Part shown: in pieces, positions 8,362 through 54,865 of the stretch
How positions within the stretch are numbered: position 1 is the stretch's first letter
Layout of the letters: every line of letters starts with the position of its first letter
DNA from: Leuctra nigra
Taxonomy: Eukaryota > Arthropoda > Insecta > Plecoptera > Leuctridae
NCBI GenBank assembly: GCA_934045905.1
Contig: OW203763.1
Span: 50,618,194 to 50,682,193, forward strand
Reading direction: 5' to 3'
Length of the DNA stretch: 64,000 nt
Notes under the pieces: model-generated
Seen by the model: the letters and a program-made list of their open reading frames with translations, nothing else
What the model was told of the DNA's origin: nothing
Database searches by the model: none
Program-made: the position numbers and the translations under genes

Positions 8362-8566
8362 TTCTGCTGGTTCAACGTGTTCAACAATCACTTCTTCCTC
8401 GGCAACGAGAGTGCTCAGGTTGTGATCGACTTCCTGGGACAGGAGGACGTTGCCGTAGTTATGGATCCGCCCTTCGGTGGCCGCGTGGAGCCGCTTGCCA
8501 AGACAGTGGCCAGTCTCAGTCGACAGCATCGGGAGTTACATTACCTCACAGAAGACAAGCTTAGAG
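8338..8566 (+). CDS. ZCCHC4: ZCCHC4-like rRNA N6-adenosine methyltransferase, internal exon (MTase core)
   Basis: The exon lies between acceptor TTTTCAG and donor AGAG|GTACGG and ends in phase 1. Its 76 codons include FCWFNVFNNHFF and MDPPFGGRVEPLAKT. The DPPF box is the catalytic motif of N6-adenine methyltransferases, and its context matches animal ZCCHC4, the nuclear enzyme that methylates one adenosine of 28S rRNA. The phase fits the exon at 16284, which continues the homology. Earlier exons (GRF zinc finger, N-terminal fold) and the C-terminal zinc-finger exons were not found in this window. Alternative start within the exon (CTTCAG|TTCTGC) is possible but less like a normal acceptor. 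Confidence in the family is high; expression cannot be judged. Confidence 0.85.
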
Positions 8567-20838: not shown

Positions 20839-20847
20839 CTATACCGC

Positions 20848-31989: not shown

Positions 31990-32150
31990 TGTAGTGATTT
32001 GTAGGTGATTACATGGTGTAACAAATAAAGACACGTGCATCTACAATAATTCACTCCGTTTATTCGGCCATCTTCCTTACATCCTCTTCTGCTCACCGCC
32101 TGCTATCATGTCGTATCCTTCCTCGGCTCACAGCCTTGTAGGATACTACA
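31990..32150 (-). repeat. 3' LTR of element A
   Basis: Begins TGTAGTATCC and ends AATCACTACA on the minus strand. It contains AATAAA (minus strand) for polyadenylation. The polypurine tract GAAGAAGGAAGGGA lies immediately upstream at 32151-32164. Confidence 0.93.
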
Positions 32151-32390
32151 TCCCTTCCTTCTTCACAATTGAACTCATAATCAAATCTTTCTGAATATCA
32201 TAATTAGTAGAATATTACAATGAATAATATGTACCGATGGAATCCGTCTTCGAGACACATAATCGCATAACTGTAACACAAAATCATAATACATAATCTT
32301 TCTATATCTATTATTATAATATGAAAAATGAGAGGAAATGATAACAATAATAAGCATGTATATGATAATCTTTCACACACATATTCCATA

Positions 32391-35936: not shown

Positions 35937-36103
35937 TGCCGGACCAATTTAAATGGCAATTTCCAAATTTCCAACAATTTCCTTCGTAGTTCACGAGAAT
36001 AGACCTTGTCTAGAACTTGATCCCTTATCTGATCTTCTTCTTGTGTACCAAATTCACAGGTAGTACTAATCTGCCGTAATCTAGTCACAAATCCATCGAC
36101 TGT
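35933..36103 (-). pseudogene. Element A gag, middle part with frameshift
   Basis: The minus strand continues gag after the B insertion (FVTRLRQISTTCEFG; VYSRELRRKLLE). It hits a stop at 35933 while the correct continuation (VLKTSRAWEA) lies in another frame beginning near 35936. A small indel around 35940-35955 therefore breaks gag independently of element B. Confidence 0.75.
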
Positions 36104-38759
36104 TGTAATATCGGCCTTTAGAGCGGAGAATGTAATGAATTTAACTAGTTTAATCAGGACTTCTGACACCAGTCTATCTATTGTGGAAGACAGACAAAAC
36201 CGTTTATGTTAATATAAAAATACGAATGAAAGGGGTAAGATTTGATTTGTCAAGATGTTACCTTGGAATGAAGGCGCTGGGGTACAGGTTGTGAAACCGT
36301 GTAAGAGCAGAATCGTTCGAATAAAAGGCAGATCTCGAAGTGATGAGTCGTTTATGAGCAAAGATCTCTCTTTATGAAAATTGATCTCTTATGATCGTAG
36401 AAGTCTTCGAATTGAATAATAGAAATCTTATTTTTAATTGAATGAAATATCTGAGATAAAATAAAGTTCTGTAGATACTCCTTGAATAGTTATTGATTGG
36501 ATAATAAATGGTCGTTTACTACCAACTAATATCTCTTGATTGAATAAGTGAATTTAGATAAGGACCTTGTCTTCTAATGAATGAAATTAGTAAAATGAAA
36601 ACTTGATCTCTGAAATGATTATTCAAGTATTTCTTTTTAGGTTATGAATGAGTCTTATATGGAATTTAATTTATAGGGAAAGGTTTGAAGGAATTGTATT
36701 TACCAAGATTGGCTCACCTCGATGGCAGGGTAATCCTTGGAAATTAGTAATCCTTTGGTATCCGTTTAAACACTGTTTATTATTTAAAACGAATTTTTGT
36801 TCAAGTTTATAAAACACGACACTGAATATTATAAACACTTTAAAATTGAAAACACTGTCTGAAGTTATATAAATGTTTAAAAATATACTTTGATCAATAA
36901 AATTATAGGAACTCTATAAACACACGTAAATAATGTTATTAATTTTAAACTTATTTAAAAACACAATATATTTATGTAGAAGTTAAATTGAATGTTTATT
37001 TTCGATTAAAACACAATAAATCTGTTTTTCACAATTCGCTGTGTACAATGTATAATTCTGAACCAAAGAGGTGTGAACATGTCAAGAGCTAGAATCAGAC
37101 TGCCCTGAATGAAGGGGAGAGATGAGCTTATATAGATTCTCCTTGTCCTTGAGGGGGTGATGTCATAGAGGGGTGGCTAGACAAAGGGGTAAGCTTTGTC
37201 CTTGACTACAGGTGTTCATTCTTACACTTCCTGATTGGTGTTAGGTTGTTCTTTTAGAAGTTTCTATTATTGTGCAAAATTTTGGATAATAGTAAAATTA
37301 GATTTGAATGATGATTAGATTGATGGGATTATGAAGTTATACAATTCATGTGTTGTTTGATTATTAAACTTGTATTTATGATTTTAAACTAACTAGAAGA
37401 TATCTAGAATATACTAAAATTAAAACACACATAAACTAATATAATAGTTCAATTAATAGTCTTATTGGACAAGATAATTAGTGTAACCATGGTGTAGATT
37501 GGTTAATAAATGGTAATCTATATTGGACAGGTTTGACAAATATTTATACCTAAATGTTTATTGTCCATTAGATTGTCTTGTAGACATAGGAAGAATTGTG
37601 CAGAGCCTCTAGTACACAAAGTATAATTGAACTGATTAATACTAAATGATTCTTTGATATTTTACTAAACTACATGGCCTTTTAGTAATGGCTTAAAATA
37701 TTTATTATTTTTGGTTGAATGACAAATTATAGAATGAGTCGACAATGTAAAGTTATACAAACTTAATTTGCTATTCGGGGTTTTTATTTAGTTTATTAAA
37801 TTGGAATATAAAGTAAGTTGTTTTTGTTTGAACAGACAAAATATAATATGAAATAGTGGACTCTGAATAATTATACTTTGCTTTGTTCAGTATTTTGTTG
37901 TACTAGTGGAATGTTTTCCCTAGGACGTTTTGTAGAATATAAACTAGGGTTTCTCATTGTTCTCTATGGAATTTATGAGCTAAAATTAATAATTATTATT
38001 GGAATATAAAACTAGTGGAATAATAGTAATTAAGTTTGCTCATTTCTCTAAGGAAATCATGAACTATAGATAGTGATTGTTTTTGTTTGAACAATTAAAG
38101 TATAACATGAAGTAATAGATTCTATATAATTACACTTGTAATTGTTCGGTATTTTGATACTAATGGAATATGTTACATGTGCCTTTGTTTGGCCTTGGTT
38201 GAACTTGGCCTAGAATGGGGGTGTGTCTAGGAACTAGGTCAGACACAGGGGTGAATGCTCGGTCTTGTAAACAGGTGTTTTGTAACACCCTTCCAGGAGG
38301 CTAGGGAATATTAGAGGTCCTTTTTGGAGGCTAGAGCTCCTTGGTTGGTCTAGATCCTGAGGGGTTGTGTCTATGGTTTGGTTAAGACAAGAGGGTGTAA
38401 GTTTGTCCTTGAAAACAGGTGTTATAATACTACTCTTCCTGGATGTTAGATTTTACAGAGACCCTTCTGAGAGGCTAGGATTTTACAGACACCCTTCTGA
38501 GAGGCTAGACTTATAAAGCCAAGCTTTGTTCTAGTTTCTTTCTTTGGCTGTGTGTGTTTTATTCCATTAGACTTTTATAGATCATTTAATTGATCGTGAC
38601 CTAATATATCTATTGGATTACTATCTAGGTGAGTACTGATTTAAAAAATAGATGAATCCTCATTGAGAGCAGTCTTGATAATAGTACAGATAAGGAACTA
38701 ATGATTTAGATAAATGTTTGAGTGAATGATTTTATATGAGTAGTTGTGGCTACTGTACA
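36104..38759 (-). repeat. 3' LTR of element B
   Basis: 2,656 bp with ends TGTACAGTAG and CGATATTACA on the minus strand. Includes a 29-bp direct repeat around CCCTTCTGAGAGGCTAG at about 38453-38515. Very AT-rich; no coding content recognised. Confidence 0.95.
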
Positions 38760-39094
38760 AGACGGCTCAACAACGGGAAGTTCAGACTATGGTCTTCAAG
38801 ACCAAGACTGAACGAAAAGAAAATTATGAAATCATGAATGAAATCATTATTTACGATATTTGATGTGTTGAATTCTTCACGTGGTTTCTGTAGTGTCGTT
38901 GAAGTGCTGTAGAGACCGGGTCGGTAGAGGGACGACTCGGTTTCTAGCTCTGGTGGTCTCGCAGATAGAGACGGCCAGGTAGTAGCGTGAAGGTGTCGAA
39001 CGGTGTCGTGTGGTGGAAGTCGAGTGATGGTGGGGCTCTCGTGTGATATGGCTAACGGTAGGTTAGCAATTGTGGAACGCCATGTGTCCACTGA
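38750..39094 (-). CDS. Element B possible terminal exon
   Basis: A minus-strand frame is preceded by a strong acceptor TATTTTTCAG at about 39094 and runs open to a stop at the edge of the 3' LTR. It encodes a Thr/Ser/Pro/His-rich peptide (SHESPTITRLPPHDTV; SSLYRPGLYSTSTTLQ). It could be the last exon of an accessory message. Evidence is limited to the splice signal and length. Confidence 0.3.
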   Translation of the reverse strand, partial: SVDTWRSTIANLPLAISHESPTITRLPPHDTVRHLHATTWPSLSARPPELETESSLYRPGLYSTSTTLQKPREEFNTSNIVNNDFIHDFIIFFSFSLGLEDHSLNFPLLSRLVQ

Positions 39095-40456
39095 AAAATA
39101 TTGAAAACAGCAATAGAGTAGGGTTACGAACATTTTTGGGGTATATTTGTTTCGTTTGGGGACATTTGATTTTGTGAAAATATTTTTCTAATTTAACTTG
39201 GATTTGTGACCAATTATGATTTAAGCTATTACAGAATTAATATTATATGAACATGAACTATAATTTGTATATAAGTGTCTATTGAGGTTAAGAGTGAACA
39301 AAATTTCAATTTTGAGGTTGAACAATGGGCAAGTTGATGATTAATTACACAATTGGGGTTGCATATTTAAAATGAATTGATTCATGGATATGAGTTGTGT
39401 CGTGAACCGTATTAGTGATCACCTTATCATCTAAAAGACATATGGAAATGTTAGACAGATTACTTTCTGAAGGATACATAGTATTATATGTATGACATGG
39501 GTGACAATTGTATGAGAATGATACAGTATGATGGGATGAAACAATACGAAGTTATAGTTGTCGGAGGATGCACACACATCACACACAGGACCTACAGTAG
39601 GAAAGATAGATGTAGAAGATTGTTGTTGAGAATGATGTAAGGTACTTATCGAAGTTTGTAGACTCAGCGAAGACAGTTGTTTCCATATCCCAAGTAAATA
39701 TTATGGTTTTCGCCATATTGAAATGGTTGACTTGAACGCCGTGATTAGAGTAGCGGAAGATTTGTGAACTAGTACCATGTGAGAAGGACAGGACACTTGT
39801 TGAATGAGTATGTTAGGCCGGCCGGACCCATAGGTGGAGACACGAAGATAATTACAAACACCAATGTGAATTTACGTAAAATATAATTGAATTTAAAGAT
39901 ATGAAGTACAAAAGTTAAACATAATATAAGAATATAATGGTAATTTTCTAATTGTAAGCTAAGAGGTATGATTATATTTGGTTTCCTAGATGGTAGATTT
40001 GAAGTAATGTACAATGAATTATAATTAAATGAATGATGTGACGGATGATGGAAATTGTTATGAGATGAAATTGTCTAATTACTAATTATAATTAAGGCAC
40101 CAAATATTTCTATTCTAAAACTGATTCTAATAATATATTCAACAAAACTTTGGTATAAAAATTAATATAGACTAATATATCTTTTTGGCAAACAGGACTA
40201 TAGAATTGATTAAATAATGATGTAATGATAAAAGTAATACAGATGAATGTCTATGGAATGAATTGATCGGAAATTTGTAAGTTATTTGAATGTTGGATAA
40301 GGTTAAAATTATGAAGTGTAAAAGGGGTTTAGATGGAGTTTGGAATTAATAATATGAAGTTTAGAGTGGATAACAAAATAAGGGAATGGACTTAAAAATA
40401 ATCAAAGATATTTGGTGAACCTTATAGACTAAACTAAGGATTAGAATAATGTAAAG
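38760..40456 (-). other. 3' non-coding part of element B
   Basis: Apart from the possible exon at 38750-39094 this region has no convincing ORF; a frame at 39769-40014 looks like chance. It is AT-rich and may be 3' untranslated or intronic sequence of the accessory messages. Confidence 0.45.
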
Positions 40457-41209
40457 TTAGAAATGTTCGGCTATTATACAAGAATTGTCTGTTAAAATAC
40501 AGACCAATTCAAGAAAGGAGGGATCGTGGTGGTCCTCTTCGATGTTTTGCAGAGCCTCCTCAATGTACATCACATCTCCCTGAGGAAGTTCATTTTCGAT
40601 AATGGATGAATTGAATTGATTTGTTTCTTCTTGGATATTTTGAACTTGTCTAGACGCGATATCGTCTAAAAAAGTTTTTAACGCTTCATCTTCCTCCATT
40701 TCGATGAGATATATTTCTGTTTGCAAAATTTCCTCATCTTGATGGGTGTTGGTCGCTTCCTCTATATCTACTTCCATCATTTCATTTTCGGGAGTCACTG
40801 GCTCCACCAGTGGACAGTAAGTGTCTTTCTAAAGGTAGATAATAGAAAATTTGGGATGATGATTCTGGGTGGAACTGTATGAAAATCTGAATACATTTGA
40901 TTTTGAAACATGAAAAGGAAATAAATTTGATTTTAGATAAATGAGGATTGGATAGTTTTAGTTTAATATAACTAAACTTTGTTCTAAATTTGATTGATAC
41001 ATAGAATAATTTTGAATGAAATAAATTAAGTAATTTCAATAATATAAAATATTGAAAATAAAATACATTTATAAAACATGTTAATTTGAATAAATTTTAT
41101 AATAAAACAAAAGATTTTTAGGCGGGGTAGGGATTATAATATTAATTACTAACACAAGAAAGATAAAAATTAAAAAATGGAAATTACTCACCAGATCCTT
41201 GTTATCCAT
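40457..41209 (-). CDS. Element B accessory ORF3, two predicted exons (129 aa)
   Basis: A minus-strand ATG at 41209 gives six codons (MDNKDL) to 41192, followed by an excellent donor CTG|GTGAGTAAT. An acceptor TTTAG at 40833-40829 starts the second exon at 40828. The reading frame joins in phase and continues (KDTYCPLVEPVTPENE) to a stop at 40457. The product is strongly acidic (MMEVDIEEATNTHQDEE; LIEMEEDEALKTFLDDI). An acidic, short, nuclear-type regulator is imaginable, but no family was recognised. An intron kept inside a retroelement implies that genomic RNA escapes this splice and a subgenomic RNA uses it. Confidence 0.5.
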
Positions 41210-41727
41210 ATCGATTTAATAATAATAATAGCACAACTTGTCTTCTCGAAAGATTGTTGTTGAATGATCCTTTCTAGAGGGTAGGTTTTAAAAATTTTGG
41301 TGTGTTGTTCTCGCGGGTAGGTAAGAGGGTGGGGGTGTTGTATCTTGTTCTTTAGCTGTGGTTGGCCGCTGATTTTGCCCAGCGTCCGCACATTGTGAAA
41401 AAGGGGGGGGGGGGGGGTATCATAAATTGGAAGTGTCAAGCGCTTGAAGTTGAGGGGTAAGATTTTTGAAGGTTTTGTCGAACTGGGAAGAAAACATAAG
41501 ATTTGGTTTTCAAGTTGAAAATAAAGATATAACATTGTCAAACCGAGATGTGTGTGTGTGCTCCTCTAAAAATAAATATAATTATTTTAGATTATTTATG
41601 TATTACCTGTTACCTATGGATGTGACCTGAAATATAAATTACACGTTAAGCCACTGTTTTTCGGGGTTTCTTGCTGTTCCATAACGTAGGAAAATAATTT
41701 GCGAGTCTGAACTTTTATGTCACAGAT

Positions 41728-42183
41728 TCACTGGGGTAAAAGGGATAGTTCCCGTACTAATGATGTTGGTACAATTTCAAAGTACAAGGACGGGTCTTGT
41801 CCTGGGTTTATGGGGAGAAAAGATTCTTTTTCAATTTCTTGGTCAAGTGTATCGAGAGTGTTCAGTAACTGTGGACCGTGTTGATCAAATATATACTTGA
41901 TCATTTCCTTGATGTTTTGGTCCAGAGGTTTAAGCCAAGTAGCGGCTTCTTCGATCAGTGAATTAATTGTATTGATAGAGTGATCTTGGTAGAAGATGGG
42001 AAAAGTTTCAACTTCATGAATCTCTCGTAAGAGAATTTGCCAAGTTAAATGATCGAACTCTACATCAATAAATTGGTGGAGATTAAATAGTCGCGTAACT
42101 GGTACACTTGAATATGTGTTGGGCTGTGCATTAGGTGTATAATTATTTCTATTAACAACTAAATCATTGTCCTCAGCCGACAT
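41728..42183 (-). CDS. Element B accessory ORF2 (151 aa)
   Basis: A Met-initiated frame rich in Asp, Glu, Leu and Ile (LTWQILLREIHEVETF; IKEMIKYIFDQHGPQLL; LDTLDQEIEKES), suggesting a mostly helical acidic protein. It follows two pyrimidine-rich (CT)n tracts on the minus strand, with possible acceptors CTGCGAG and GGGATAG close to the ATG. No family was recognised, and there is no membrane segment. Length and composition argue for a real protein, but this is inference. Confidence 0.5.
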   Translation of the reverse strand: MSAEDNDLVVNRNNYTPNAQPNTYSSVPVTRLFNLHQFIDVEFDHLTWQILLREIHEVETFPIFYQDHSINTINSLIEEAATWLKPLDQNIKEMIKYIFDQHGPQLLNTLDTLDQEIEKESFLPINPGQDPSLYFEIVPTSLVRELSLLPQ

Positions 42184-42238
42184 TGTATTTTGTTGTTCTA
42201 TCCCAGCGTTGAACGCGTGTCTCGCAGCGTGGTGTTGT

Positions 42239-42305
42239 GAGAGAGAGAGAGAGAGAGAGAGAGGTCGGGGTGTGGAAGAGCGAGCGGGAATACTTGGACT
42301 CGGGA

Positions 42306-42350
<45 letters not shown>
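42239..42350. repeat. Two (GA)n microsatellites
   Basis: GA runs at about 42239-42262 and 42309-42350. On the minus strand, the sense strand of element B, they are long CT tracts and could act as polypyrimidine tracts before the exon at 42183. A shorter GA run is at 43495-43512. Confidence 0.9.
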
Positions 42351-42354
<4 letters not shown>

Positions 42355-42460
42355 GTAGCGTGAGATTGTTGTGAGGGAGGTTAACCGGGTTAAGAAGAAA
42401 TTTGCTTCAGACTATTAGCGTCAAGTTCAGTTAAGTAATGTGTTTTGTTTTTGTAGATAT

Positions 42461-42999
42461 TTACCAATTTCTTGGTTTCGGCTGCATCTGGGAAACATTG
42501 AACGACAGGTCTGCGACGTCGACTTGGCGACCGTATGTGCGGCTGAATGCAGCCTGGACACAGTTGTAGCGCCGTCTCATGTAGAGCTCCGGTAGGGATG
42601 GAATTGCATATGGATCATTACGACGTCGGTCAAGTGCTACTATCAAGAGGCGATGGTATAAATCACGGATATACCAGGTGTTAATTAGAACTGATGGTAA
42701 TTCACCCATTTCTTTTTTGCTAAATACGCGTTGTACGTTGTGTGTAGTAAAATCGAAAGTCGACTGGCTAGGGTAGTACTGATAACCTGGATCGTCCGGG
42801 AGATATGTGTAATTTTGCTGAATTGGAGATGGATTAAAAATAGGCGATCTTATCATATTAATATATTTGGCATTGCTGCCAAATGAAAGTGGGTAGGAAA
42901 CGAGGTATTCCAGCTCTCTCTGATGGGGTGGACGTTCTGTCGGCTTCTCTTGTCCTTTGTTATTGCAGGTAGTTTTCGGGTATTGTTGTCCGGACATCT
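42461..42999 (-). CDS. Element B accessory ORF1 (178 aa)
   Basis: ATG at 42997 is preceded directly by a splice-acceptor-like TTTTCTCGCAG, so the ORF may begin an exon of a subgenomic message. The protein is Pro/Tyr/Gln-rich at the N-terminus, then has a helical-looking part (VLINTWYIRDLYHRLLIV, IPSLPELYMRRRYNCVQAAF). It ends PKPRNW where the stop TAA is part of a donor-like GTAAATATC, so it could instead splice onward. There is no signal peptide or membrane segment and no known family was recognised. It lies where an env gene would be in errantivirus-like elements but does not resemble Env. Confidence 0.55.
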
Positions 43000-43592
43000 G
43001 CGAGAAAACAGTTACATGTTGATGTCTTCTTTAAACACTTGTTGTACAGTTTGGTGTAGTCATGGCAAACACAATAGGATGGGTTGGTTGGCTTGGATCT
43101 GAAACATGAAGTTAAGTTGGTGTTATAGACAAAATGATTTGCGTGAGAAGTAATTGAAATCTTGATGGGATTTGAACTTGATCAATAATTAAGTTATGTA
43201 TTAGTTAGGGATGTCAAAACAAGACAAGATCGATGTCATGAATATGTTTATAAGTATAGAATAACGATATAAATAAATATCTAAATTTATTACATAAAAG
43301 AAACATCTCCGTGGAGAATGACCATTATTATTATCCAATTATGATGATATATAAGAGAGATGCTTACTTAGACCGATCGCTCGATTCATAAATATTTACG
43401 ACTGTTTCGAGTGGAGACTGTGTCGACCCAATGGAATATTATAAACGACTGAATGGAATATTAATTGTCTAAACATAAATTGCGAGTTATACAAGAGAGA
43501 GAGAGAGAGAGAATTATTGGAATATTTGAAGGTTTGTTTGAATAAACAAATTGATTGAATTAGAACGTCGATGAGATAAAATCTTTCGAAAT
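43000..43592 (-). other. Spacer between pol and accessory ORF1 of element B
   Basis: Non-coding, ending with the acceptor-like TTTTCTCGCAG at ORF1. It carries no recognised protein. Confidence 0.5.
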
Positions 43593-46500
43593 TTATTCTG
43601 AATCGGAGTCTTTGGGCTTTTGCGTGAATCTTCCGTCTGAAGGAGGTTTGTTTGCATAATTAAACAGCATTAGATCTCGTAGGTTATACTGGCTTGTTGT
43701 GGCACGCGAATATGGAGGTGTGGCGGTATCATCGTCTGAAGTAATTGAATCATAACTTATTGATGGGTCCGCGGTGATATTCTGTGAGAGTAAGCTGTCT
43801 TCGCTCATACTCGGAGTTTCTTCGTGTTTGGCGCGAGAGATGCGCGCGTCGTCATCCTGAACAGCTGTTTCCGTGTTCGAACTCGGTGCTTCCACGAACG
43901 TGTCGCTGATGTCTATTGGATCTACTGAACTACTACTAGCGCCAGTGGTTTGTAACGGGGTGGACGCAATGAGGTGAGTTGCATTGCTGATGTCTGTTAT
44001 ATTTTGTGAAGCTTGCTCATTGTTGAGATTCGTGGATTTTGGGGTAAACCAACTCGTATTTGCTTCACTTTCAGACATTCCATTCCTATTCTTCGAGGGT
44101 GAAGTTGTCGGCGTGCGCAACTCAGCGTGGTGAATTTTACGATCTTGACCTTCGGCAGCAGCTTCCTTGGGTTCTGCATCCTCGCTCTCCGAGTTTGATG
44201 ATTGGCTGGAATGACTGGAAGGGGAGGAGGGGAGGGAACCAAGATGGCTGGTAGATGTTGACGCCGTCGCTCCGGACTTCGGAATGAAATTTTGTTGTGA
44301 TTTCGGGTGAATATTTTGATTTTGAGTATCATTTGTAGGTTTAATAATTATAATGTCTTCGTCTTCGAAGTCTGAGATATCGTATGGCCATTCTGAGTAG
44401 GATGCTGCGAGGTTATCTTGAGAGGTTATGTTTTCTTTGTCTTCCTTGTCTTTGTGTTCATCATCAATGAGATTTAGATTCCCATCATATTGGTCGGGAT
44501 GAAATGTTTTAAACGCTTTTAGTCGAGCACTATGTACTGTTTGTATTTTTCCTGTTTGTAAATCTTGAATTTCAAAATTTACTTTGGATTTAGCAGAGAT
44601 TATTCTACTTGGTCCTTTGCTATAATATTTGCTGAATTTACGCCCACTCATTTTGTCATAGACAGGAGTGTGTACAAACACTAGATCTCCTGGGGCGTAT
44701 TGTATATCTTTTGATTTTCTGTTGTAATATTCTTCTCTGACTTCCACATTCTTTTTGAGAGTTTCCCTGGCGAGTTTGAAAGCTTGTTGAAGTCGTGATA
44801 ATAATCGTTGTGTGAATTCGCTTCTAGGTTCGTCTTTCGAGGCTCGACTCGGGGTGAGGACTGATTCATAGGGCAGTATGGGATCACGTCCATGGGTTAG
44901 GAAGAAGGGACTTTCACCACTGGATGAAGAAATGTTGGTACGTAAGGCAAATTGTATCATCCCTAACAATAGATCCCAATCTTTTTCATGAGCATAGTGA
45001 CTAAGCATTGCTCGTATTGTACGATGATAACGTTCAATCATATTACTTGATGCATGATAGCTTGAGGTGCAGATGTGCTTGATTGACAATAGTTTACACA
45101 CTTCATTGAAGAGATGAGATGTGAAATTTCCACCTCGGTCGCTTACTAACTCGAGTGGCGTTGAATGTTCGGCTATTAGGTGATCTACAAGTGCGGTGGC
45201 TACTGCTTGGGCAGTTTGACTGTGTAGGGCTACTAAAATAACCCATTTTGAGAAATGATCTACCATGCTTAGGATATAGCGATTTTGTTTCTTTGTTGTT
45301 TTGAGTGGACCCAAAATATCGATACTGTATCTAATACCGGGCCCAGTGAGCTCAGAGAATCTTTGTAATGGAGGTCGGTCTTTAGTGACTGGACGTTTTG
45401 ATGATTGACAGCTTACACAGTGCTTGATGAATTCTTCTATATCATGGAACATTCCTTTCCAATAGACTCTAGATTTTAGTAATTGTTGAGTCCTATGGAT
45501 TCCAGAATGTGCTGCAAAGCCTGGTAATGAGTGGAATGTGTTCATTATTTGATTTTGCATTGTTTTAGGAATCACAAGGCGATCATGGCGTTCTGGGGGA
45601 ATTCGGATCTTGTAGAGAAGTTCATCATCGTCAAGTGAGTACAATGGATCACAAGAATTATTTACTAAGAGTTTCTTGATGAGAGGTGATAATTCAGGAT
45701 CAGATCTTTGTAATTTCTTAATGTAGAATCTGTCCATTATTGGTTCGAATGGTAATTCTTCTCTTAAGAGATTCAATTGTAGATAATTTCCTTGTGGGTC
45801 TGTGATGGGTGAATCTTCTTGGGAACAAACATTTTCATTTAGTTTGAGTTGATTTTCAATTTCTTGAAATTTCTTGTTTCGGGGAGGTTTTTCTTTCTTC
45901 TTAGCTTTTATTGGCTTGATTTCTTCTGGGGGATTTGTTGTATCATTAGTAAAGAAAGTTGAATTTTCGATTTCTGGTGGGAACTTACAGATTTCAGAAC
46001 TAGACATTTGAATTGTTGGATCATCATCATTGTGGGGAATTCGAGAGAGACTATCAACATGGGGAATTTTACTTCCTGGGACATATTTCAAATCAAATGA
46101 ATATTGACTTAGAAACAGGGTCCATTTAGTGAGACGAGAACTATGACTGGGTAATTTGAGAAGATATTGTAGAGCACGATGATCCGATTGGGCGAGAAAA
46201 TGTTTGCCAGCTAGGTAAACGTGGAACTGACGAACTCCATATACCAATGCTAAAAGCTCTAGTTCGGTTACTTGATAGTTACCTTCGGCTGGTTTTAATT
46301 TCCGGCTTGCATAGGCAATAGGTTTTTCTTCTCCATTTATGTTTTGGGAAAGAATAGCACCTATTCCGATACCGCTTGCATCTGTAGTAAGAATAAAGGG
46401 CATGTCAAATCGAGGAAATGCGAGTATTGGGGCAGTACATAATAAATTTTTCAGAGTATTGAATGCTTGAGTGTGCTGATCTGACCAGTGGAATCTGGCA

Positions 46501-49500
46501 TGTTTGCGGGTAAGTTCATTTAATGGTTGGACAATGTCTGCATAGTTTTTGACATATTTTCTGTAGTATGAAGTCAGTCCAATGAAAGTTCGTACATGTC
46601 CAACAGTTTTTGGTTGAGGAAAGTTTTTGACTGACTCGATAAGTCGAGGATTAGTTCCAATACCATGTCTAGAGATAGAATGTCCTAAGAAGACAACTTC
46701 TTGATTGAGGAATGTACATTTGGAGGGTTTGAGTTTCAAACCGGCTTTTTCTAGCCTTTCAAAGATGAGTTTCAACTTTTTAACATGTTCTTCGATTGTT
46801 TCAGAGAAGACTACGATGTCGTCCAGATATCCGACGCAGTCTTTATTCAAGACGTCTTGGAGTACGTAGTTGATGAGGCGTTGGAAATTTGCCGGACTAG
46901 TACAGAGACCAAAGGGAGAACGACAAAATTGATAAAGGTTGGTAGCCGTACAAAAAGCTGTAATGTGTCTATCTTCTGCTGCTATAGGAATGTTATTAAA
47001 AGCTCCATGCAGATCAATTGCTGAGAAGTACTTTGCTCCTCCTAACAAATCAAGAACATCTGATATTCTGGGACAAGGTGTAGACTCTTGGACAATATGC
47101 ATGTTAGTTTTTCGAAAATCAATGACTAACCGGTATTCATTTGGTTCTCCGGGTTGTGTTCGTTTGCTCACGAGTAAGCAAGGCGAAGACCAGGCACTCC
47201 TAGAATGTTCAATTATGCCTTGATCTAGGTGTTCTTGGATTAATTTGTCCAAAATTTCTCTTTGATAATGAGGTAGGCGATATGGAGCTTGTTTTATTGG
47301 TTTGACATCTTTATTTATGGTGATGCGGTGTTCGATTAGAGGGCAATATCCAATTTCATCGCCTTCTAGGTAGAAGATATTTGCATACTCTTGTATCAAG
47401 TCTTTTACTGCATGATATTCTTCTGGAGGTAGACTTCCAAGTTTGCACTTTTCATGTAGGATAGTAAATCTTTCTCTTAGTCTTTCTTGATCTTTGGGTA
47501 TATTTGATCCATGGGTGGTAGAATAGTTGTCTATGGCTGCAACTAGTAGAGGATATTCATTAGTAGTATCGTGTGGTGAAGGTTCATTTTCATCTTCACA
47601 GTTGCATTGTTCTAGATGTCCTAACAGAGTATTTTCTGTAATTTCGGCATTGACATTAGATATGTTGACAACTAGGATTTTCAATAGTAAGTCTTCACTT
47701 TCTGTGTAGAGAGCATCTGCAGCTCTGATACCTAGTGGTAGGACGTCAAGTGGTTTAAATAACATAGTTTTCTTGTCATTTGGATCACTCTTTCTATCGA
47801 GTAGACGTTTTTGTTTCACTTTGACAAACATCTCTGTGTTTGGTGGAATTATTTGACCTTTGATTGTTCGTACTTGAACTTTCTGTGGTTCGTATCTTGA
47901 TTTGTCACTTTCAATAGTGCAAGTTGGATCAGGATTTGTCAAATTTTGATTATTTGGGGTATGATTTACACTTTTGGCAAGACGAGATGACTTACGTGGA
48001 TTTTTATCAGGACATTTGGGCTCTCTTGAAGACTTATAATTAGGATAGGGAGGCTCACTTGGAGACTGATTATATTGGGGAGGCTCTCTTGGAGACTGAT
48101 TAAAGTATTGGGGCTCATTTAGAGGTTGATCATAATATTGGGGCTTTCTTGAAGACTTATTGAAGTATGGAGGCTCATTTAGAGGCTTATTATCCGGATT
48201 TGGAGGCTCGTTTGGAGGCTTAATGGAGTAAGGAGGCTCTTCTTGAGACTGATTAGGATGAGGAGGCTCTCTTGGAGACTTATTAGAGTAAGGAGGCTCT
48301 TTTTGAGACTGATTAGGATAGGGAGGCTCTTGTTGAGACTTATTAGAGTATGGAGGCTCTTTTTGAGGCTGATTGGGTTGAAGAAGCTCTTTTGGAGTCT
48401 TGTAAGGATGAAAACGACCTGCCTTCCTAGCTAGAGAAGTAGGTTTCATAGGTTTATCAATTAGATATATATTACAAGTATTAGAATCAAAATCAAAAGA
48501 TACCTTCCTTTTGATTTGAGGGTTTGAGTTATTTTGACCATAGGGATTTATCACTGGTGGAGAGGTGTACATCTTCTTCATCATGATAGAATCTTCTATT
48601 TTACTATTTCCCATTACTGAAGAGGGTATTTGAGAGTCTTCTAGGTATTGAAGTGGCCACTTTGATACGTTAGATTCTTCTTTGTCTTCTTTCAGTAATT
48701 GAGGAGATTGGGTCATGAAATTCCAGTTAATAATCTTATTATCTAGGTTAGTAGTTGAAACCATTGAGGGGCCTGGATAGATTGGCCAGTGACACACTGT
48801 TATCTGTACATTTGTGTCCTGAAATGCTTGAATCAAAATAGGTCTTACATATTTCCATGGGATGCCACCTAGTCCACTTCCTATTGCTGGAAGTGCTAGT
48901 TGTGTGACTCCGTGGTATATGCACAATCTTTTTAGACCAATCAAAGCTTCTTCTATACGAGGTAGAGTTGTTTTCTCATTGAAACGTTCTTTTGTTATCA
49001 TGTAGAAGATAAAACGTTCTTTTTCTTGGAGAGATGCTACTCTTTGATCCTTGTGATGAATTGCTTCTCTTAATCTTTCAACGTTGCCATAACGATTTTG
49101 AAATTCTAAGCTAATTTCACTCATTGGTTTCATGTCTCTTGACACGTTATGTGCAAGGGAAATATTATTAGGAGATAAAAATATATTACACTTAACCTCC
49201 ATTAACTTGAATGTATTTGAAGTAGGAGGAATGGACACAACATGAGTTTGATCAGACTCATATTGATATGAATGATTATTTACATTATTTACAGGGGTAG
49301 AATATGAAAACTCCAACTGATTTCCTTTCATTCTAGACTGATTAGAATCATGGGATTTTAAATTCTTTGCTTGTTGACCTTCTGTATTGTTACATTCAAT
49401 ACTAAGATCTTGATCTAAGTCTACTTGAATGGACTTATTACTAGTACTAACTCTACTTTTTAAGGGGTATTCTACTATGCCTAGTAACTGATCACTGCTC

Positions 49501-49901
49501 ACAGTACTGTTGGCATAGGGAATAACATTTTCTTCTTCATGTATACACCTGTTTTTGGTGTCTAAAATTAAATTATAATTAGCAATGAAATCATATCCAA
49601 TTAAACCTGCGAAATCTCCAGTGTCGAGACTGTCTTCACATATGACGAAATTAAAAGGATACTGATCTCTACCTAATTGTATATCTAATATAGCATAACC
49701 TAGTATGGGCAATAAATTTCCTGTTACAGAAAATATTGGACGTTCAAACTGATATATGGGAACATTCGCTCTTTTAACGATATTTTCGTGGATCAAGCTT
49801 ACTTGGGCTCCACTGTCAAATAGCATCAAATAGGGAATTTTCTCGGAATTGTGGGGGTTTATTACATAACTATGTACAGTGGGTTTATCCTTTTCCTGCA
49901 T
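43593..49901 (-). CDS. Element B Pol polyprotein with macro domain
   Basis: An intact 2,102-residue frame. The order is retropepsin (LFDSGAQVSLI near residue 29; GLIGYDF), a linker, a TARG1/OARD1-like macro domain at about 233-372, a proline-rich repeat (EPPYPNQSQ-type, about 500-635), a beta-rich spacer, reverse transcriptase (about 850-1050; YLDDIVVF near 1022), RNase H (TTDASGIGIGAIL near 1170; SDHRAL), HHCC finger near 1457, integrase core with D, D, E (DILGP, VSDRGGNF, MIERYHR at about 1529, 1587, 1624), a C-terminal GPSRII segment near 1766, and a roughly 290-residue Ser/Asp/Glu-rich tail. All catalytic motifs of the enzymes look intact. The size is well above the usual 1,000-1,200 residues for gypsy Pol, mainly because of the macro domain, the repeat and the tail. 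Confidence 0.93.
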   Translation of the reverse strand: MQEKDKPTVHSYVINPHNSEKIPYLMLFDSGAQVSLIHENIVKRANVPIYQFERPIFSVTGNLLPILGYAILDIQLGRDQYPFNFVICEDSLDTGDFAGLIGYDFIANYNLILDTKNRCIHEEENVIPYANSTVSSDQLLGIVEYPLKSRVSTSNKSIQVDLDQDLSIECNNTEGQQAKNLKSHDSNQSRMKGNQLEFSYSTPVNNVNNHSYQYESDQTHVVSIPPTSNTFKLMEVKCNIFLSPNNISLAHNVSRDMKPMSEISLEFQNRYGNVERLREAIHHKDQRVASLQEKERFIFYMITKERFNEKTTLPRIEEALIGLKRLCIYHGVTQLALPAIGSGLGGIPWKYVRPILIQAFQDTNVQITVCHWPIYPGPSMVSTTNLDNKIINWNFMTQSPQLLKEDKEESNVSKWPLQYLEDSQIPSSVMGNSKIEDSIMMKKMYTSPPVINPYGQNNSNPQIKRKVSFDFDSNTCNIYLIDKPMKPTSLARKAGRFHPYKTPKELLQPNQPQKEPPYSNKSQQEPPYPNQSQKEPPYSNKSPREPPHPNQSQEEPPYSIKPPNEPPNPDNKPLNEPPYFNKSSRKPQYYDQPLNEPQYFNQSPREPPQYNQSPSEPPYPNYKSSREPKCPDKNPRKSSRLAKSVNHTPNNQNLTNPDPTCTIESDKSRYEPQKVQVRTIKGQIIPPNTEMFVKVKQKRLLDRKSDPNDKKTMLFKPLDVLPLGIRAADALYTESEDLLLKILVVNISNVNAEITENTLLGHLEQCNCEDENEPSPHDTTNEYPLLVAAIDNYSTTHGSNIPKDQERLRERFTILHEKCKLGSLPPEEYHAVKDLIQEYANIFYLEGDEIGYCPLIEHRITINKDVKPIKQAPYRLPHYQREILDKLIQEHLDQGIIEHSRSAWSSPCLLVSKRTQPGEPNEYRLVIDFRKTNMHIVQESTPCPRISDVLDLLGGAKYFSAIDLHGAFNNIPIAAEDRHITAFCTATNLYQFCRSPFGLCTSPANFQRLINYVLQDVLNKDCVGYLDDIVVFSETIEEHVKKLKLIFERLEKAGLKLKPSKCTFLNQEVVFLGHSISRHGIGTNPRLIESVKNFPQPKTVGHVRTFIGLTSYYRKYVKNYADIVQPLNELTRKHARFHWSDQHTQAFNTLKNLLCTAPILAFPRFDMPFILTTDASGIGIGAILSQNINGEEKPIAYASRKLKPAEGNYQVTELELLALVYGVRQFHVYLAGKHFLAQSDHRALQYLLKLPSHSSRLTKWTLFLSQYSFDLKYVPGSKIPHVDSLSRIPHNDDDPTIQMSSSEICKFPPEIENSTFFTNDTTNPPEEIKPIKAKKKEKPPRNKKFQEIENQLKLNENVCSQEDSPITDPQGNYLQLNLLREELPFEPIMDRFYIKKLQRSDPELSPLIKKLLVNNSCDPLYSLDDDELLYKIRIPPERHDRLVIPKTMQNQIMNTFHSLPGFAAHSGIHRTQQLLKSRVYWKGMFHDIEEFIKHCVSCQSSKRPVTKDRPPLQRFSELTGPGIRYSIDILGPLKTTKKQNRYILSMVDHFSKWVILVALHSQTAQAVATALVDHLIAEHSTPLELVSDRGGNFTSHLFNEVCKLLSIKHICTSSYHASSNMIERYHRTIRAMLSHYAHEKDWDLLLGMIQFALRTNISSSSGESPFFLTHGRDPILPYESVLTPSRASKDEPRSEFTQRLLSRLQQAFKLARETLKKNVEVREEYYNRKSKDIQYAPGDLVFVHTPVYDKMSGRKFSKYYSKGPSRIISAKSKVNFEIQDLQTGKIQTVHSARLKAFKTFHPDQYDGNLNLIDDEHKDKEDKENITSQDNLAASYSEWPYDISDFEDEDIIIIKPTNDTQNQNIHPKSQQNFIPKSGATASTSTSHLGSLPSSPSSHSSQSSNSESEDAEPKEAAAEGQDRKIHHAELRTPTTSPSKNRNGMSESEANTSWFTPKSTNLNNEQASQNITDISNATHLIASTPLQTTGASSSSVDPIDISDTFVEAPSSNTETAVQDDDARISRAKHEETPSMSEDSLLSQNITADPSISYDSITSDDDTATPPYSRATTSQYNLRDLMLFNYANKPPSDGRFTQKPKDSDSE
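48030..48400 (-). repeat. Proline-rich peptide repeat coded by 30-36 base units in pol B
   Basis: GGAGGCTC recurs about every 30-36 bases and codes for EPP in the repeated unit SxxEPPYPNxS. About 13-15 diverged copies are seen. It probably forms a flexible linker between macro domain and reverse transcriptase. Confidence 0.85.
48780..49205 (-). other. Macro (ADP-ribose-binding type) domain inside Pol B
   Basis: The segment contains SLAHNVSRDM, RFIFYMITKERF, LPRIEEALIGLKRLC, HGVTQLALPAIGSGLGG, and ends with an ITVCHW strand. This follows the TARG1/OARD1 macro-domain pattern motif by motif. The catalytic lysine of TARG1 is kept (ITK). The catalytic aspartate position is glycine (GSGLGG instead of GLD), and the phosphate loop GAG is replaced (PMSEIS). 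ADP-ribose binding is uncertain and hydrolase activity is doubtful. Function in the element is unknown. Confidence 0.85.
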
Positions 49902-49954
49902 GTAATAACTTCTGTTTGTAAGAAGTAGCAGGGAATTGATTAATCGATCTTGTG

Positions 49955-51514
49955 TTAATCCGAGGAGGTTCCTGGCATGTTGCGAAACCCCATAGCTTTC
50001 TTCTTATATTCATTGGATTGTTGTGACCCATTTACTGCACCATTGCCATTTGCTGCAGTGACTTCAGCATAGGTTTTTGCTGGTGGGTTCTGTGGAACAC
50101 TTGGTGGAACTTGTTGATCCTGAGTTTGATTCCATTGTTGGACTTGGGGGTTGATATGATTCAGATCCTTATGATATCGTCCAAGATTGTGTTGAGGGTC
50201 AACTTGGGGGCCACTTACAGCTCCTGGGAGGAGAGAATTAGGAGGCAAGACTTGGGATTGGGGAATATATGGTTGTTGATTTTGTTGTTGGTTGTATTGA
50301 GGAGGAGGATATGTATGATAGTTGGGTTGGGGGTATTGTCGGTTTCCTTGGCGAGGTTGATTGTTGTTTTGATTTGGATTGTAGTTCCTTTGAGGACCAT
50401 TGTTATGGTAGTTATTAGAGATGCCTCTGCGTTCATTGTTCCTCTGACGTAGAACACATTCCTCGATTGAATGAAATTGGGATTTGCAATAGTTACAAAA
50501 GATATTGTTGTTTGAATCGTATCTAGTGTACTGATTTGCTATTCCTCTTGGTTGATTTTGATAATTTTGATAATTAGAGGGGCGATTGTTTATAGGACGA
50601 TTTGATTGATTTGAGTTGTTCCTGAAACTTTGATCATGAAGAACCTTTCTGGGTCCAAAGTTTTGTCGAACAGGACGTTGTTGAATGGCGTTTGAATTCA
50701 ATTGCCGTTCCTTGTTGGAAGGTGGTGTTGAATCATTGAAATCTTCGCTTATCTTGGGTTGTACCACGTTGACTTTGGTTCTGTTAACCTTTTGTTGTTC
50801 CAGTTCCATAGCCAGTTCTAATGCTTTTTCAATTGTTTTAGGTTTCTGCAATCCGATGAGGGAACTGCCGCTTTCCACGCGCAAACCATTGACGAAGACA
50901 CGAACAAGACTACGATTGATCAACTCACGAGTGATTATAACTTCCTCGGGCTTCAAACCTTTAGCTTTGATAGCCAAAAGTCCAGCCAATTTCAATCTAG
51001 TCAGGTATTCTTTAGCCAATTCTCCGGGTTTCTGGCAAGTTTTGTAATAGCTCTGAAGCAAATCATCAGAGATGGTTTCGGGTTTATACCAATCGATAAG
51101 GGCTTTACTGACCTCCTTCCAAGAACTTTTACCAAGTCCAGGGTTACTTTTCAAATAGTCCGCTGCTGGACCAATTAAGCGCAATTTGAGAATTGCTACT
51201 TTCGTGGGATCATCCCAATATCCCAATTTTCCAGCTTCATTAATAGCTTTGACAAAATCAATGGATGATATGGTACCTGAGATTCCAGAGAAGGAGGGAA
51301 CGAGTGGGAGGAGACTACCTACATTAGGTTTCTTATCAGAATCTGAGGTAGTTCTTGGGGTAATAACTGGGGTTTTGATTGAACTTGATTCTGGGATTAT
51401 TATTGGATTGGAGGATCCTTCTCCTCCATCAATTGTAGGAGTAACAGCACGCTCTGCGCCGGTGTTACTAACTATGCTAGCGTCTTTCTCATCTTCATCT
51501 GAACTTCCTGGCAT
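49955..51514 (-). CDS. Element B Gag
   Basis: An intact 519-residue frame starting at 51514. An acidic, serine-rich N-terminus is followed by a capsid-like region (LLPLVPSFSG; LRLIGPAADYLKSNPG; SSWKEVSKALIDWYK) at about residues 65-260. One zinc knuckle CNYCKSQFHSIEEC lies near residues 338-352. The C-terminal third is rich in Asn, Gln, Pro and Tyr. The stop at 49955-49957 overlaps the upstream extension of the pol frame, which is open from 50003 in the -1 frame. A Gag-Pol fusion by -1 frameshift is therefore possible, though I see no classic slippery heptamer in the 49-base overlap. Confidence 0.92.
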   Translation of the reverse strand: MPGSSDEDEKDASIVSNTGAERAVTPTIDGGEGSSNPIIIPESSSIKTPVITPRTTSDSDKKPNVGSLLPLVPSFSGISGTISSIDFVKAINEAGKLGYWDDPTKVAILKLRLIGPAADYLKSNPGLGKSSWKEVSKALIDWYKPETISDDLLQSYYKTCQKPGELAKEYLTRLKLAGLLAIKAKGLKPEEVIITRELINRSLVRVFVNGLRVESGSSLIGLQKPKTIEKALELAMELEQQKVNRTKVNVVQPKISEDFNDSTPPSNKERQLNSNAIQQRPVRQNFGPRKVLHDQSFRNNSNQSNRPINNRPSNYQNYQNQPRGIANQYTRYDSNNNIFCNYCKSQFHSIEECVLRQRNNERRGISNNYHNNGPQRNYNPNQNNNQPRQGNRQYPQPNYHTYPPPQYNQQQNQQPYIPQSQVLPPNSLLPGAVSGPQVDPQHNLGRYHKDLNHINPQVQQWNQTQDQQVPPSVPQNPPAKTYAEVTAANGNGAVNGSQQSNEYKKKAMGFRNMPGTSSD

Positions 51515-51620
51515 GGTTGTTGGGTTTTATAGAAGACTTTCAAACAATGGGGTTAACTTTTCTACTCTTTCGACTTATTATACCGAATAATAACGTAGCT
51601 GATAAGGTATCAATAAGAAC

Positions 51621-51638
51621 ATCCCACTTCTGACACCA
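51621..51638 (-). promoter_or_regulatory. Primer-binding site of element B (tRNA-Leu)
   Basis: The minus strand reads TGGTGTCAGAAGTGGGAT two bases from the LTR. It is complementary to the 3' end of insect tRNA-Leu (CCCACTTCTGACACCA), as in some Drosophila gypsy elements. The same site is present in the remnant at 29426-29443. Confidence 0.85.
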
Positions 51639-51640
51639 TT

Positions 51641-54296
51641 TGTAATATCGGCCTTTAGAGCGGAGAATGTAATGAATTTAACTAGTTTAATCAGGACTTC
51701 TGACACCAGTCTATCTATTGTGGAAGACAGACAAAACCGTTTATGTTAATATAAAAATACGAATGAAAGGGGTAAGATTTGATTTGTCAAGATGTTACCT
51801 TGGAATGAAGGCGCTGGGGTACAGGTTGTGAAACCGTGTAAGAGCAGAATCGTTCGAATAAAAGGCAGATCTCGAAGTGATGAGTCGTTTATGAGCAAAG
51901 ATCTCTCTTTATGAAAATTGATCTCTTATGATCGTAGAAGTCTTCGAATTGAATAATAGAAATCTTATTTTTAATTGAATGAAATATCTGAGATAAAATA
52001 AAGTTCTGTAGATACTCCTTGAATAGTTATTGATTGGATAATAAATGGTCGTTTACTACCAACTAATATCTCTTGATTGAATAAGTGAATTTAGATAAGG
52101 ACCTTGTCTTCTAATGAATGAAATTAGTAAAATGAAAACTTGATCTCTGAAATGATTATTCAAGTATTTCTTTTTAGGTTATGAATGAGTCTTATATGGA
52201 ATTTAATTTATAGGGAAAGGTTTGAAGGAATTGTATTTACCAAGATTGGCTCACCTCGATGGCAGGGTAATCCTTGGAAATTAGTAATCCTTTGGTATCC
52301 GTTTAAACACTGTTTATTATTTAAAACGAATTTTTGTTCAAGTTTATAAAACACGACACTGAATATTATAAACACTTTAAAATTGAAAACACTGTCTGAA
52401 GTTATATAAATGTTTAAAAATATACTTTGATCAATAAAATTATAGGAACTCTATAAACACACGTAAATAATGTTATTAATTTTAAACTTATTTAAAAACA
52501 CAATATATTTATGTAGAAGTTAAATTGAATGTTTATTTTCGATTAAAACACAATAAATCTGTTTTTCACAATTCGCTGTGTACAATGTATAATTCTGAAC
52601 CAAAGAGGTGTGAACATGTCAAGAGCTAGAATCAGACTGCCCTGAATGAAGGGGAGAGATGAGCTTATATAGATTCTCCTTGTCCTTGAGGGGGTGATGT
52701 CATAGAGGGGTGGCTAGACAAAGGGGTAAGCTTTGTCCTTGACTACAGGTGTTCATTCTTACACTTCCTGATTGGTGTTAGGTTGTTCTTTTAGAAGTTT
52801 CTATTATTGTGCAAAATTTTGGATAATAGTAAAATTAGATTTGAATGATGATTAGATTGATGGGATTATGAAGTTATACAATTCATGTGTTGTTTGATTA
52901 TTAAACTTGTATTTATGATTTTAAACTAACTAGAAGATATCTAGAATATACTAAAATTAAAACACACATAAACTAATATAATAGTTCAATTAATAGTCTT
53001 ATTGGACAAGATAATTAGTGTAACCATGGTGTAGATTGGTTAATAAATGGTAATCTATATTGGACAGGTTTGACAAATATTTATACCTAAATGTTTATTG
53101 TCCATTAGATTGTCTTGTAGACATAGGAAGAATTGTGCAGAGCCTCTAGTACACAAAGTATAATTGAACTGATTAATACTAAATGATTCTTTGATATTTT
53201 ACTAAACTACATGGCCTTTTAGTAATGGCTTAAAATATTTATTATTTTTGGTTGAATGACAAATTATAGAATGAGTCGACAATGTAAAGTTATACAAACT
53301 TAATTTGCTATTCGGGGTTTTTATTTAGTTTATTAAATTGGAATATAAAGTAAGTTGTTTTTGTTTGAACAGACAAAATATAATATGAAATAGTGGACTC
53401 TGAATAATTATACTTTGCTTTGTTCAGTATTTTGTTGTACTAGTGGAATGTTTTCCCTAGGACGTTTTGTAGAATATAAACTAGGGTTTCTCATTGTTCT
53501 CTATGGAATTTATGAGCTAAAATTAATAATTATTATTGGAATATAAAACTAGTGGAATAATAGTAATTAAGTTTGCTCATTTCTCTAAGGAAATCATGAA
53601 CTATAGATAGTGATTGTTTTTGTTTGAACAATTAAAGTATAACATGAAGTAATAGATTCTATATAATTACACTTGTAATTGTTCGGTATTTTGATACTAA
53701 TGGAATATGTTACATGTGCCTTTGTTTGGCCTTGGTTGAACTTGGCCTAGAATGGGGGTGTGTCTAGGAACTAGGTCAGACACAGGGGTGAATGCTCGGT
53801 CTTGTAAACAGGTGTTTTGTAACACCCTTCCAGGAGGCTAGGGAATATTAGAGGTCCTTTTTGGAGGCTAGAGCTCCTTGGTTGGTCTAGATCCTGAGGG
53901 GTTGTGTCTATGGTTTGGTTAAGACAAGAGGGTGTAAGTTTGTCCTTGAAAACAGGTGTTATAATACTACTCTTCCTGGATGTTAGATTTTACAGAGACC
54001 CTTCTGAGAGGCTAGGATTTTACAGACACCCTTCTGAGAGGCTAGACTTATAAAGCCAAGCTTTGTTCTAGTTTCTTTCTTTGGCTGTGTGTGTTTTATT
54101 CCATTAGACTTTTATAGATCATTTAATTGATCGTGACCTAATATATCTATTGGATTACTATCTAGGTGAGTACTGATTTAAAAAATAGATGAATCCTCAT
54201 TGAGAGCAGTCTTGATAATAGTACAGATAAGGAACTAATGATTTAGATAAATGTTTGAGTGAATGATTTTATATGAGTAGTTGTGGCTACTGTACA
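51641..54296 (-). repeat. 5' LTR of element B
   Basis: Same length as 36104-38759 and identical wherever compared. It supplies the promoter for the element on the minus strand. Confidence 0.95.
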
Positions 54297-54628
54297 ACTG
54301 TTTCCCCCTCTTTTTGGGACATTCCACGAAGTTTTATTCGTTGCACAGGAACATTTACACCAGGCTTGAAATGGTTCGTCAAATATGCTACTGTCGCGGC
54401 ATAAACATCAACTCCTTCGCCAGGACTGGCGGTTCCAACAATAGAAAAATACACGTCTTGCACAGCTGGTCCAGCTCTATCCAACAATAAAGCTCTACGT
54501 TGCGTCTTATTGACTATATTCTTACTATCTGCATACAGTTCGAAGGAACGTAGCCATCGCGTCCATCTTTGTCCAAGCGTGTCTGGTTCGTTCTCGCAGT
54601 CAAATGCTTTCAACCTACAGTCTTCCAT
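54287..54628 (-). pseudogene. Element A gag, N-terminal part
   Basis: The frame begins with ATG at 54628 and encodes the start of a gag (RWTRWLRSFELYADSK; RRALLLDRAGPAVQDVYF; GVNVPVQRIKLRGMSQ). It is cut at about 54301 by element B; the remaining few codons are B LTR sequence. The rest of gag resumes at 36103. The gag type is that of compact animal gypsy elements of the mag/K02A2.6 kind. Confidence 0.8.
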
Positions 54629-54704: not shown

Positions 54705-54865
54705 TGTAGTGATTTGTAGGTGATTACATGGTGTAACAAATAAAGACATGTGCATCTACAATAATTCACTCCGTTTATTCGGCCATCTTCCTTACATCCT
54801 CTTCTGCTCACCGCCTGCTATCATGTCGTATCCTTCCTCGGCTCACAGCCTTGTAGGATACTACA
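54705..54865 (-). repeat. 5' LTR of element A
   Basis: Same length and nearly the same sequence as 31990-32150; one visible difference is ACATG versus ACACG near 54749. Confidence 0.93.

Follow-up and report, generated by a model that had tools for sequence, protein, structure and literature searches.

Why does the Pol polyprotein of an insect retrotransposon carry a domain related to TARG1 (C6orf130/OARD1), a cellular enzyme that removes ADP-ribose from proteins and DNA? The question is raised by a stretch of 64,000 nucleotides (hereafter the window) from the stonefly Leuctra nigra, contig OW203763.1, positions 50,618,194 to 50,682,193, in which the domain lies within a Ty3/gypsy element that we call element B. 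The contig (our C13) is the X chromosome in the genome note for ipLeuNigr2.1 (PMC10280035). A preliminary description, made from the sequence alone, had claimed a TARG1/OARD1-type macro domain between the protease (PR) and reverse transcriptase (RT) of an uninterrupted Pol frame, and had interpreted it as a captured host domain. We established the identity of the domain, its predicted fold, its architecture and conservation, and the recent insertion of the element; the earlier interpretation as a whole was partly supported.

A TARG1-type macro domain in the Pol of element B

A phmmer comparison of Pol residues 231–369 with human TARG1 gave E 4.4e-23 over 139 residues, and a profile of 33 macro domains (human TARG1 itself among the 33) matched TARG1 at E 1.7e-62. 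The Pfam Macro model fell narrowly below its cut-off on the isolated domain (20.9 bits, cut-off 22), with a sub-threshold match at Pol 308–355. In the structure model the C-terminal limit was at about residue 371, and the refined interval differs by a few residues from the 48780..49205 first proposed. By overall sequence and predicted fold, the domain belongs to the TARG1/OARD1 family. Low-complexity or chance resemblance was ruled out by the two E values and the model comparison.

The domain order in Pol was protease, macro, RT, RNase H (RH) and integrase (IN), in one open frame on the minus strand, a strand that the preliminary description had not given. Element B has gag followed by the order PR-RT-RH-IN, with the Ty3 RT as nearest match, as in Ty3/gypsy (Metaviridae-like) elements; its long terminal repeats (LTRs), putative primer binding site and short target duplication are those of an LTR retrotransposon. 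Self-blastn showed that positions 36103–38760 and 51640–54297 are direct repeats, 100.000% identical over 2658 bp. Because both LTRs are identical, we concluded that element B inserted recently.

The active site was altered. We take D125 of TARG1 to be the catalytic Asp, partner of the Lys, and the Asp of the GDLF motif to be an adenine contact. In the alignment, the window domain keeps the Lys (termed catalytic in PMC8501950), reads Gly at the catalytic Asp and has MKPMSEISL in place of the glycine loop, all as previously described. A third change, Asn at the Asp of GDLF, is found likewise in eight other rows of our thinned alignment (A1); the window row alone has Gly at the catalytic Asp position and a Glu within the loop. 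That is, because the Asp and the glycine loop are lost, the window domain is a member of the fold family by descent and not a predicted TARG1 enzyme, and catalysis is predicted to have been lost in the window family through these changes. The earlier suggestion that the domain might bind without hydrolysing is doubtful, since the GDLF Asp reads Asn and the loop contains no glycine.

Distribution and conservation in the Leuctra nigra genome

We searched 144 contigs totaling 536.2 Mb (174 scaffolds are given in the genome note, PMC10280035). With the window domain as query, the best 150 of 354 candidates all scored E 1.3e-15 or better; with human TARG1, the best 150 of 382 candidates were scored. 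The two queries combined gave at least 203 distinct match places, a few of them fragments of broken domains. Fifteen places, the window included, matched at 99–100%, 13 of them with a Pol frame of 2136–2138 codons, and eight fetched copies of this family showed 0 or 1 base difference in 468. The preliminary description had raised the possibility of a misassembly, with the domain absent from other copies of the element; misassembly or a single-copy artefact was ruled out by the 15 places, the perfect LTR pair and the target duplication.

Loci fetched from this genome carry L numbers; the first set consisted of 9.9-kb cuts, in which several copies were broken by stops or cut off. Protease then macro was found at 18 (L009–L026) of 20 loci, with RT next in 17, RNase H in 16 and integrase in 15, and RT identity to the window at such loci ranged from 90% down to 42%. 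Protease and macro were also present in L031, L034, L037 and L040 (the L031 and L040 stretches were fetched without RT) and in L059, whose RT is 41% identical. The PR-macro-RT architecture is widespread in this genome, in Ty3 families down to 41–45% RT identity. We counted macro domains 0–8 kb upstream on the same strand at 90 RT places taken from 145. By RT identity to the window, a macro was present at 15/15 places (95–100%), 15/21 (69–95%), 5/5 (50–69%), 12/14 (45–50%), 4/16 (42–45%), 8/13 (40–42%) and 0/6 (below 40%), where places lacking one may reflect broken copies or macros outside the best-scored matches. One further locus, L060, is apparently interrupted by another insertion.

Active-site residues were tallied in 47 aligned transposable element (TE) domains (the window, 45 loci and L059, near-copies included). 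The Lys was kept in 43 (lost in L015, L041, L049 and L051), the Asp in 43 (lost in the window, L049, L054 and L059), and the loop Gly in 45 (lost in the window and L049). For the 32 TE rows of alignment A1, with the human row subtracted, the counts were 30, 29 and 30, respectively. Judged by these residues, most families with the macro domain look catalytically competent, and with the Lys–Asp pair kept by most relatives examined, the copy in the window stands out as degenerate. In L059 (233–2401, plus strand) the macro has Asn at the Asp position, and this family is a possible second loss of catalysis.

Selection was assessed by Nei–Gojobori counts of the ratio of nonsynonymous to synonymous substitution rates (dN/dS) in 13 pairs. 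Of the divergent pairs, five had usable dS, and their macro ratios were 0.169, 0.174, 0.152, 0.177 and 0.172; macro dS was saturated in four other divergent pairs, and four within-family pairs held too few changes (L014–L015 1.03, L022–L023 0.171, two undefined). Elsewhere in Pol, divergent pairs gave, where computable, 0.03–0.05 for RT, 0.05–0.06 for RNase H, 0.02–0.06 for integrase, 0.10 for protease (one pair) and 0.36–0.62 for the linker behind the macro. There was no relaxation in the window lineage (window–L014 0.174 versus L011–L014 0.177), and by this measure the fold of the window family's macro appears to stay constrained despite the predicted loss of catalysis. Among pairs from long interspersed nuclear elements (LINEs), two gave macro ratios of 0.096 and 0.187 at dS near 2, and four others, with one Ty3 pair, were saturated.

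Candidate roles of the domain

The reading we favor, with roughly even confidence, is that the macro is a standing Pol component of a Ty3/gypsy clade (Gag / PR-macro-RT-RH-IN), acting as a TARG1/DarG-type ADP-ribosyl hydrolase that protects the replication complex. Fused into Gag-Pol, the domain would presumably enter the virus-like particle together with RNA, RT and complementary DNA. Host transferases would put ADP-ribose on the element's replication complex, either on single-stranded DNA or RNA or on Glu/Asp of Gag or Pol; a macro kept across the lineage would strip it, and reverse transcription or integration could then proceed. Both the substrate and the benefit are what we infer, and we would rank nucleic acid first and protein second as the target of the eraser.

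We favor an ADP-ribose eraser guarding the replication complex in part because of two precedents, a dUTPase in the PR-RT slot of bdelloid rotifer elements and an N6-methyladenosine (m6A) demethylase in an orchid Ty3/Gypsy lineage. Bdelloid LTR retrotransposons carry open reading frames (ORFs) for a dUTPase, a GDSL esterase or DEDDy, the dUTPase occupying the same slot as the stonefly macro, and captured enzymes are common to LTR and other retroelement classes in these animals (PMC5408684). The dUTPase is another nucleic-acid hygiene enzyme in this slot; the word macro is absent from PMC5408684. The orchid lineage likewise gained an eraser of a nucleic-acid modification, AlkB (PMC9289625), but this is a separate ORF in a plant, with other chemistry and with activity in vitro, whereas the stonefly domain is known from sequence. 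A macro domain is also carried by epsilon-like endogenous retroviruses of ray-finned fish (Basta et al. 2009, as cited in PMC4977317); there it forms additional ORFs in vertebrate retroviruses, whereas here it lies inside an insect Ty3/gypsy Pol. Human TARG1 and animal OARD1 are small proteins (123–284 aa among the matches listed), in contrast to the stonefly domain in Pol or ORF1, and TARG1 has the Asp and glycine loop that are missing in the window copy. The DarG macro, a DNA ADP-ribosyl glycohydrolase and the antitoxin of DarT, belongs to a bacterial toxin–antitoxin protein, unlike the retroelement domain. Enzyme capture by retroelements is already known; unusual here are the spread through diverged families, the active-site conservation and the occurrence in two retroelement classes.

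Several observations weigh against the hydrolase reading. The window copy has neither the Asp, nor the glycine loop, nor the GDLF Asp, and it may neither bind nor cleave ADP-ribose; by sequence, the macro of the window family is probably a binding or structural, non-catalytic module. As listed above, four TE rows lack the Lys and four lack the Asp. Because macro-less relatives exist (L057 and L063, RT 46%; element A, RT 34%), the macro is dispensable for Ty3 elements generally; L057 had a protease but no macro within the stretch fetched. In addition, the macro evolves faster than RT, dS is close to saturation in the informative pairs, and within-family pairs hold too few changes.

A possible though tentative alternative is that the macro removes protein ADP-ribosylation placed by antiviral PARPs, and does not act on nucleic acid. 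RNA-virus macro domains are held to reverse such modification, and in BFVD the macro model has among its neighbors Kadipiro virus VP8 and proteins from flavi-, negev- and virga-like viruses of insects. TARG1 itself also cleaves ADP-ribose from Glu/Asp (PMC8501950).

It is unlikely that the domain is a passenger, that is, a captured host domain kept by the continuous Pol frame and now serving as a folded spacer between protease and RT. Such a spacer would fit the full frames and recent insertion of a window family without catalytic residues, as well as the macro-less relative at RT 46% and the faster evolution of the macro relative to RT. However, the retention of Lys and Asp, each in 43 of 47 domains and in Ty3 and LINE elements alike, weakens this explanation because a spacer does not need an active site, and the macro dN/dS of 0.15–0.18 is well below that of the neighboring linker. 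Slightly less probable is a pure ADP-ribose reader that holds the particle or the integration complex at damage sites or at chromatin bearing ADP-ribose: it would suit the unrelaxed constraint in the window family after loss of the Asp and the pairing of macro with PHD or SAP in some LINE ORF1-type proteins, but the Lys–Asp pair of a hydrolase is retained by most of the families examined, and the lost glycine loop and GDLF Asn of the window family argue against tight ADP-ribose binding.

The favored hydrolase can also be framed more broadly, although we consider this version less likely than not: one TARG1-type hydrolase would be an insect retroelement module that passed between LINE ORF1 and Ty3 Pol, kept competent against an as yet undescribed host restriction that ADP-ribosylates the nucleic acid or particles of retroelements, with a few lineages, including that of the window, turned non-catalytic. 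If the domain is active, ADP-ribosylation limits retrotransposons enough that two unrelated classes keep an eraser, and a host defense in which the nucleic acid or particles of transposons are ADP-ribosylated becomes directly testable. The catalytic and degenerate forms in one genome provide a natural experiment on the purpose of the domain.

Other carriers, origin and surroundings of element B

Many of the non-Ty3 macro places were LINE ORF1-type proteins. At L027 and L028, the two loci where ORF2 was examined, endonuclease frames followed the macro ORF, with an RT also in L027. A PHD, SAP or SGNH/GDSL-type match, in some cases under Pfam cut-offs, stood beside the macro in 14 of 18 non-Ty3 macro ORFs (L027, L028, L029, L033, L043, L044, L047–L049, L051 and L053–L056; in L054, PHD with an OSK match). 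The macro stood alone in the other four, of which L030, L042 and L045 were clearly and L035 weakly LINE ORF1-like outside it. The larger reservoir of the domain may lie in LINE ORF1-type proteins. A PHD in CR1 ORF1 was reportedly described by Kapitonov and Jurka in 2003. ORF1 of CR1/L2/RTEX-type LINEs has an SGNH esterase (PMC3905857, PMC5408684) and resembles the stonefly proteins in its esterase and PHD domains; unlike it, L028 has a TARG1-type macro between the two, a comparison made without LINE clade assignment. An L051-type macro ORF was seen twice on the opposite strand 4378 bp from a Ty3 RT in a 1575-aa frame (C9:11614687/C9:11619065 and C4:34494722/C4:34499100), and a comparable pair lies at C2:23.73 Mb; these may be copies of a composite element that has spread.

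The macro tree had 50 rows: 34 of the 46 TE domains with a length of 120 aa or more, human TARG1, and 15 of 120 listed database proteins (14 from named organisms and one further eukaryotic protein), with no insect host protein in the set; 12 near-copies and the fragments L013, L021 and L036 were left out. Ty3 rows fell into three groups, one of 10 rows including the window (99/96), L025 with L026 (100/98) and L031 with L034 (85/85). The fewest changes were three for Ty3, five for LINE and three for host, of which starred branches force at most one each. Approximately unbiased (AU) tests rejected neither Ty3 (p 0.257) nor LINE (p 0.433) as one clade, and grouping all TE macros against the host proteins gave p 0.612, with a likelihood 3.68 above the free tree. 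Because no single clade was rejected, one TE-borne lineage may have passed between LINE ORF1 and Ty3 Pol. Capture from a host OARD1 gene, as first proposed, is plausible, but the host gene was not identified among the best 150 of 382 human TARG1 candidates, where an exon-split gene could be crowded out. The best-scoring places among the matches listed included L027 (52%) and L043 (53%), both LINE ORF1-type. With PF01661, at least 76 matches were found (best 150 of 222 candidates scored), and the four best, short pieces in 64–101-codon frames, could represent exons from different macro genes of the host.

The Ty3 macros were not all joined in the macro tree. When RT was used for the tree, the 16 macro-bearing rows did group (83/76, 84% of 200 bootstrap trees), and the two rows lacking a macro lay outside this group. 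A single gain in one Ty3 clade is tentatively suggested; several macro-bearing rows are near-copies, and the tool warned of long branches joining at the only two macro-less rows, L063 and element A.

Outside this genome, weak tests revealed no close relative, Leuctra nigra being the sole insect whose genome was searched. Pol 225–380 gave 239 candidates among 5.8 billion proteins, none at E 0.001 or better, and the isolated domain 32 candidates, likewise none. The A1 profile gave 215 matches of 2866 candidates, the 120 listed being 123–284 aa; long TE proteins could not appear because the search admits only proteins near query length. IMG/VR had no match for P0001; for the L026 domain it gave five pattern matches, none of them a relative. 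We found no description of a macro domain in Ty3/gypsy Pol or LINE ORF1 in open-licence papers.

Table 1. Features of element B in the window and of two LINE loci
Feature	Position	Strand	Evidence
Whole Ty3/gypsy element B, 18,193 bp	36104..54296	-	LTR pair and target duplication; ends placed by eye at TG...CA
5' LTR, 2656 bp	51641..54296	-	self-blastn
3' LTR, 2656 bp, same sequence as 5' LTR	36104..38759	-	self-blastn
Target site duplication ACTGT	54297..54301	.	direct reading
Target site duplication ACTGT	36099..36103	.	direct reading
Putative primer binding site TGGTGTCAGAAGTGGG	51623..51638	-	direct reading; 2 bases past 5' LTR
Gag-like ORF, 519 aa	49955..51514	-	upstream ORFs of relatives align with it
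Pol ORF, 2102 aa from ATG	43593..49901	-	2136-codon open frame, overlaps gag, -1 relative to gag
Aspartic protease, Pol about 21-120	49542..49841	-	Pfam gag-asp_proteas / RVP_2, under cut-offs
TARG1/OARD1-type macro domain, Pol 231-371	48789..49211	-	alignment and structure model
Kept catalytic Lys codon (TARG1 K84 position), Pol 304	48990..48992	-	alignment
Gly codon in place of the TARG1 catalytic Asp, Pol 345	48867..48869	-	alignment
Reverse transcriptase, Pol 920-1076	46674..47144	-	Pfam RVT_1 5.7e-32; Ty3 RT 4ol8 7.6e-51
RNase H, Pol 1139-1267	46101..46487	-	Pfam RT_RNaseH_2 4.2e-36, RT_RNaseH 1.1e-34
Integrase zinc-binding and core, Pol 1444-1616	45054..45572	-	Pfam Integrase_H2C2 1.8e-17, rve 1e-13
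L027 LINE ORF1-type macro protein	3974-5677	+	
L028 LINE ORF1-type macro protein	4008-5666	-	

The Gag-like ORF had no Pfam match, and protease matches were stronger in relatives of element B than in element B itself. Because Pol overlaps gag and is read in the -1 frame, a frameshift probably yields Gag-Pol as a fusion. The primer binding site is presumably that of tRNA-Leu. Element B is nested in an apparent second Ty3 element (Pol 32391–35936; terminal pieces 31990–32150 and 54705–54865, 99.4% identical), which its insertion apparently broke; this interrupted element (31990–35936 and 54705–54865) is a macro-less Ty3 with a Pol of 1181 aa. The roughly 4.8 kb from Pol to the 3' LTR of element B held small stop-to-stop frames, the larger being 40457–40828, 41728–42411 and 42461–43030 (minus strand). 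Elsewhere in the window, self-blastn revealed tandem arrays at 19208–20847 (unit about 135 bp) and 7689–8364 (unit about 61 bp).
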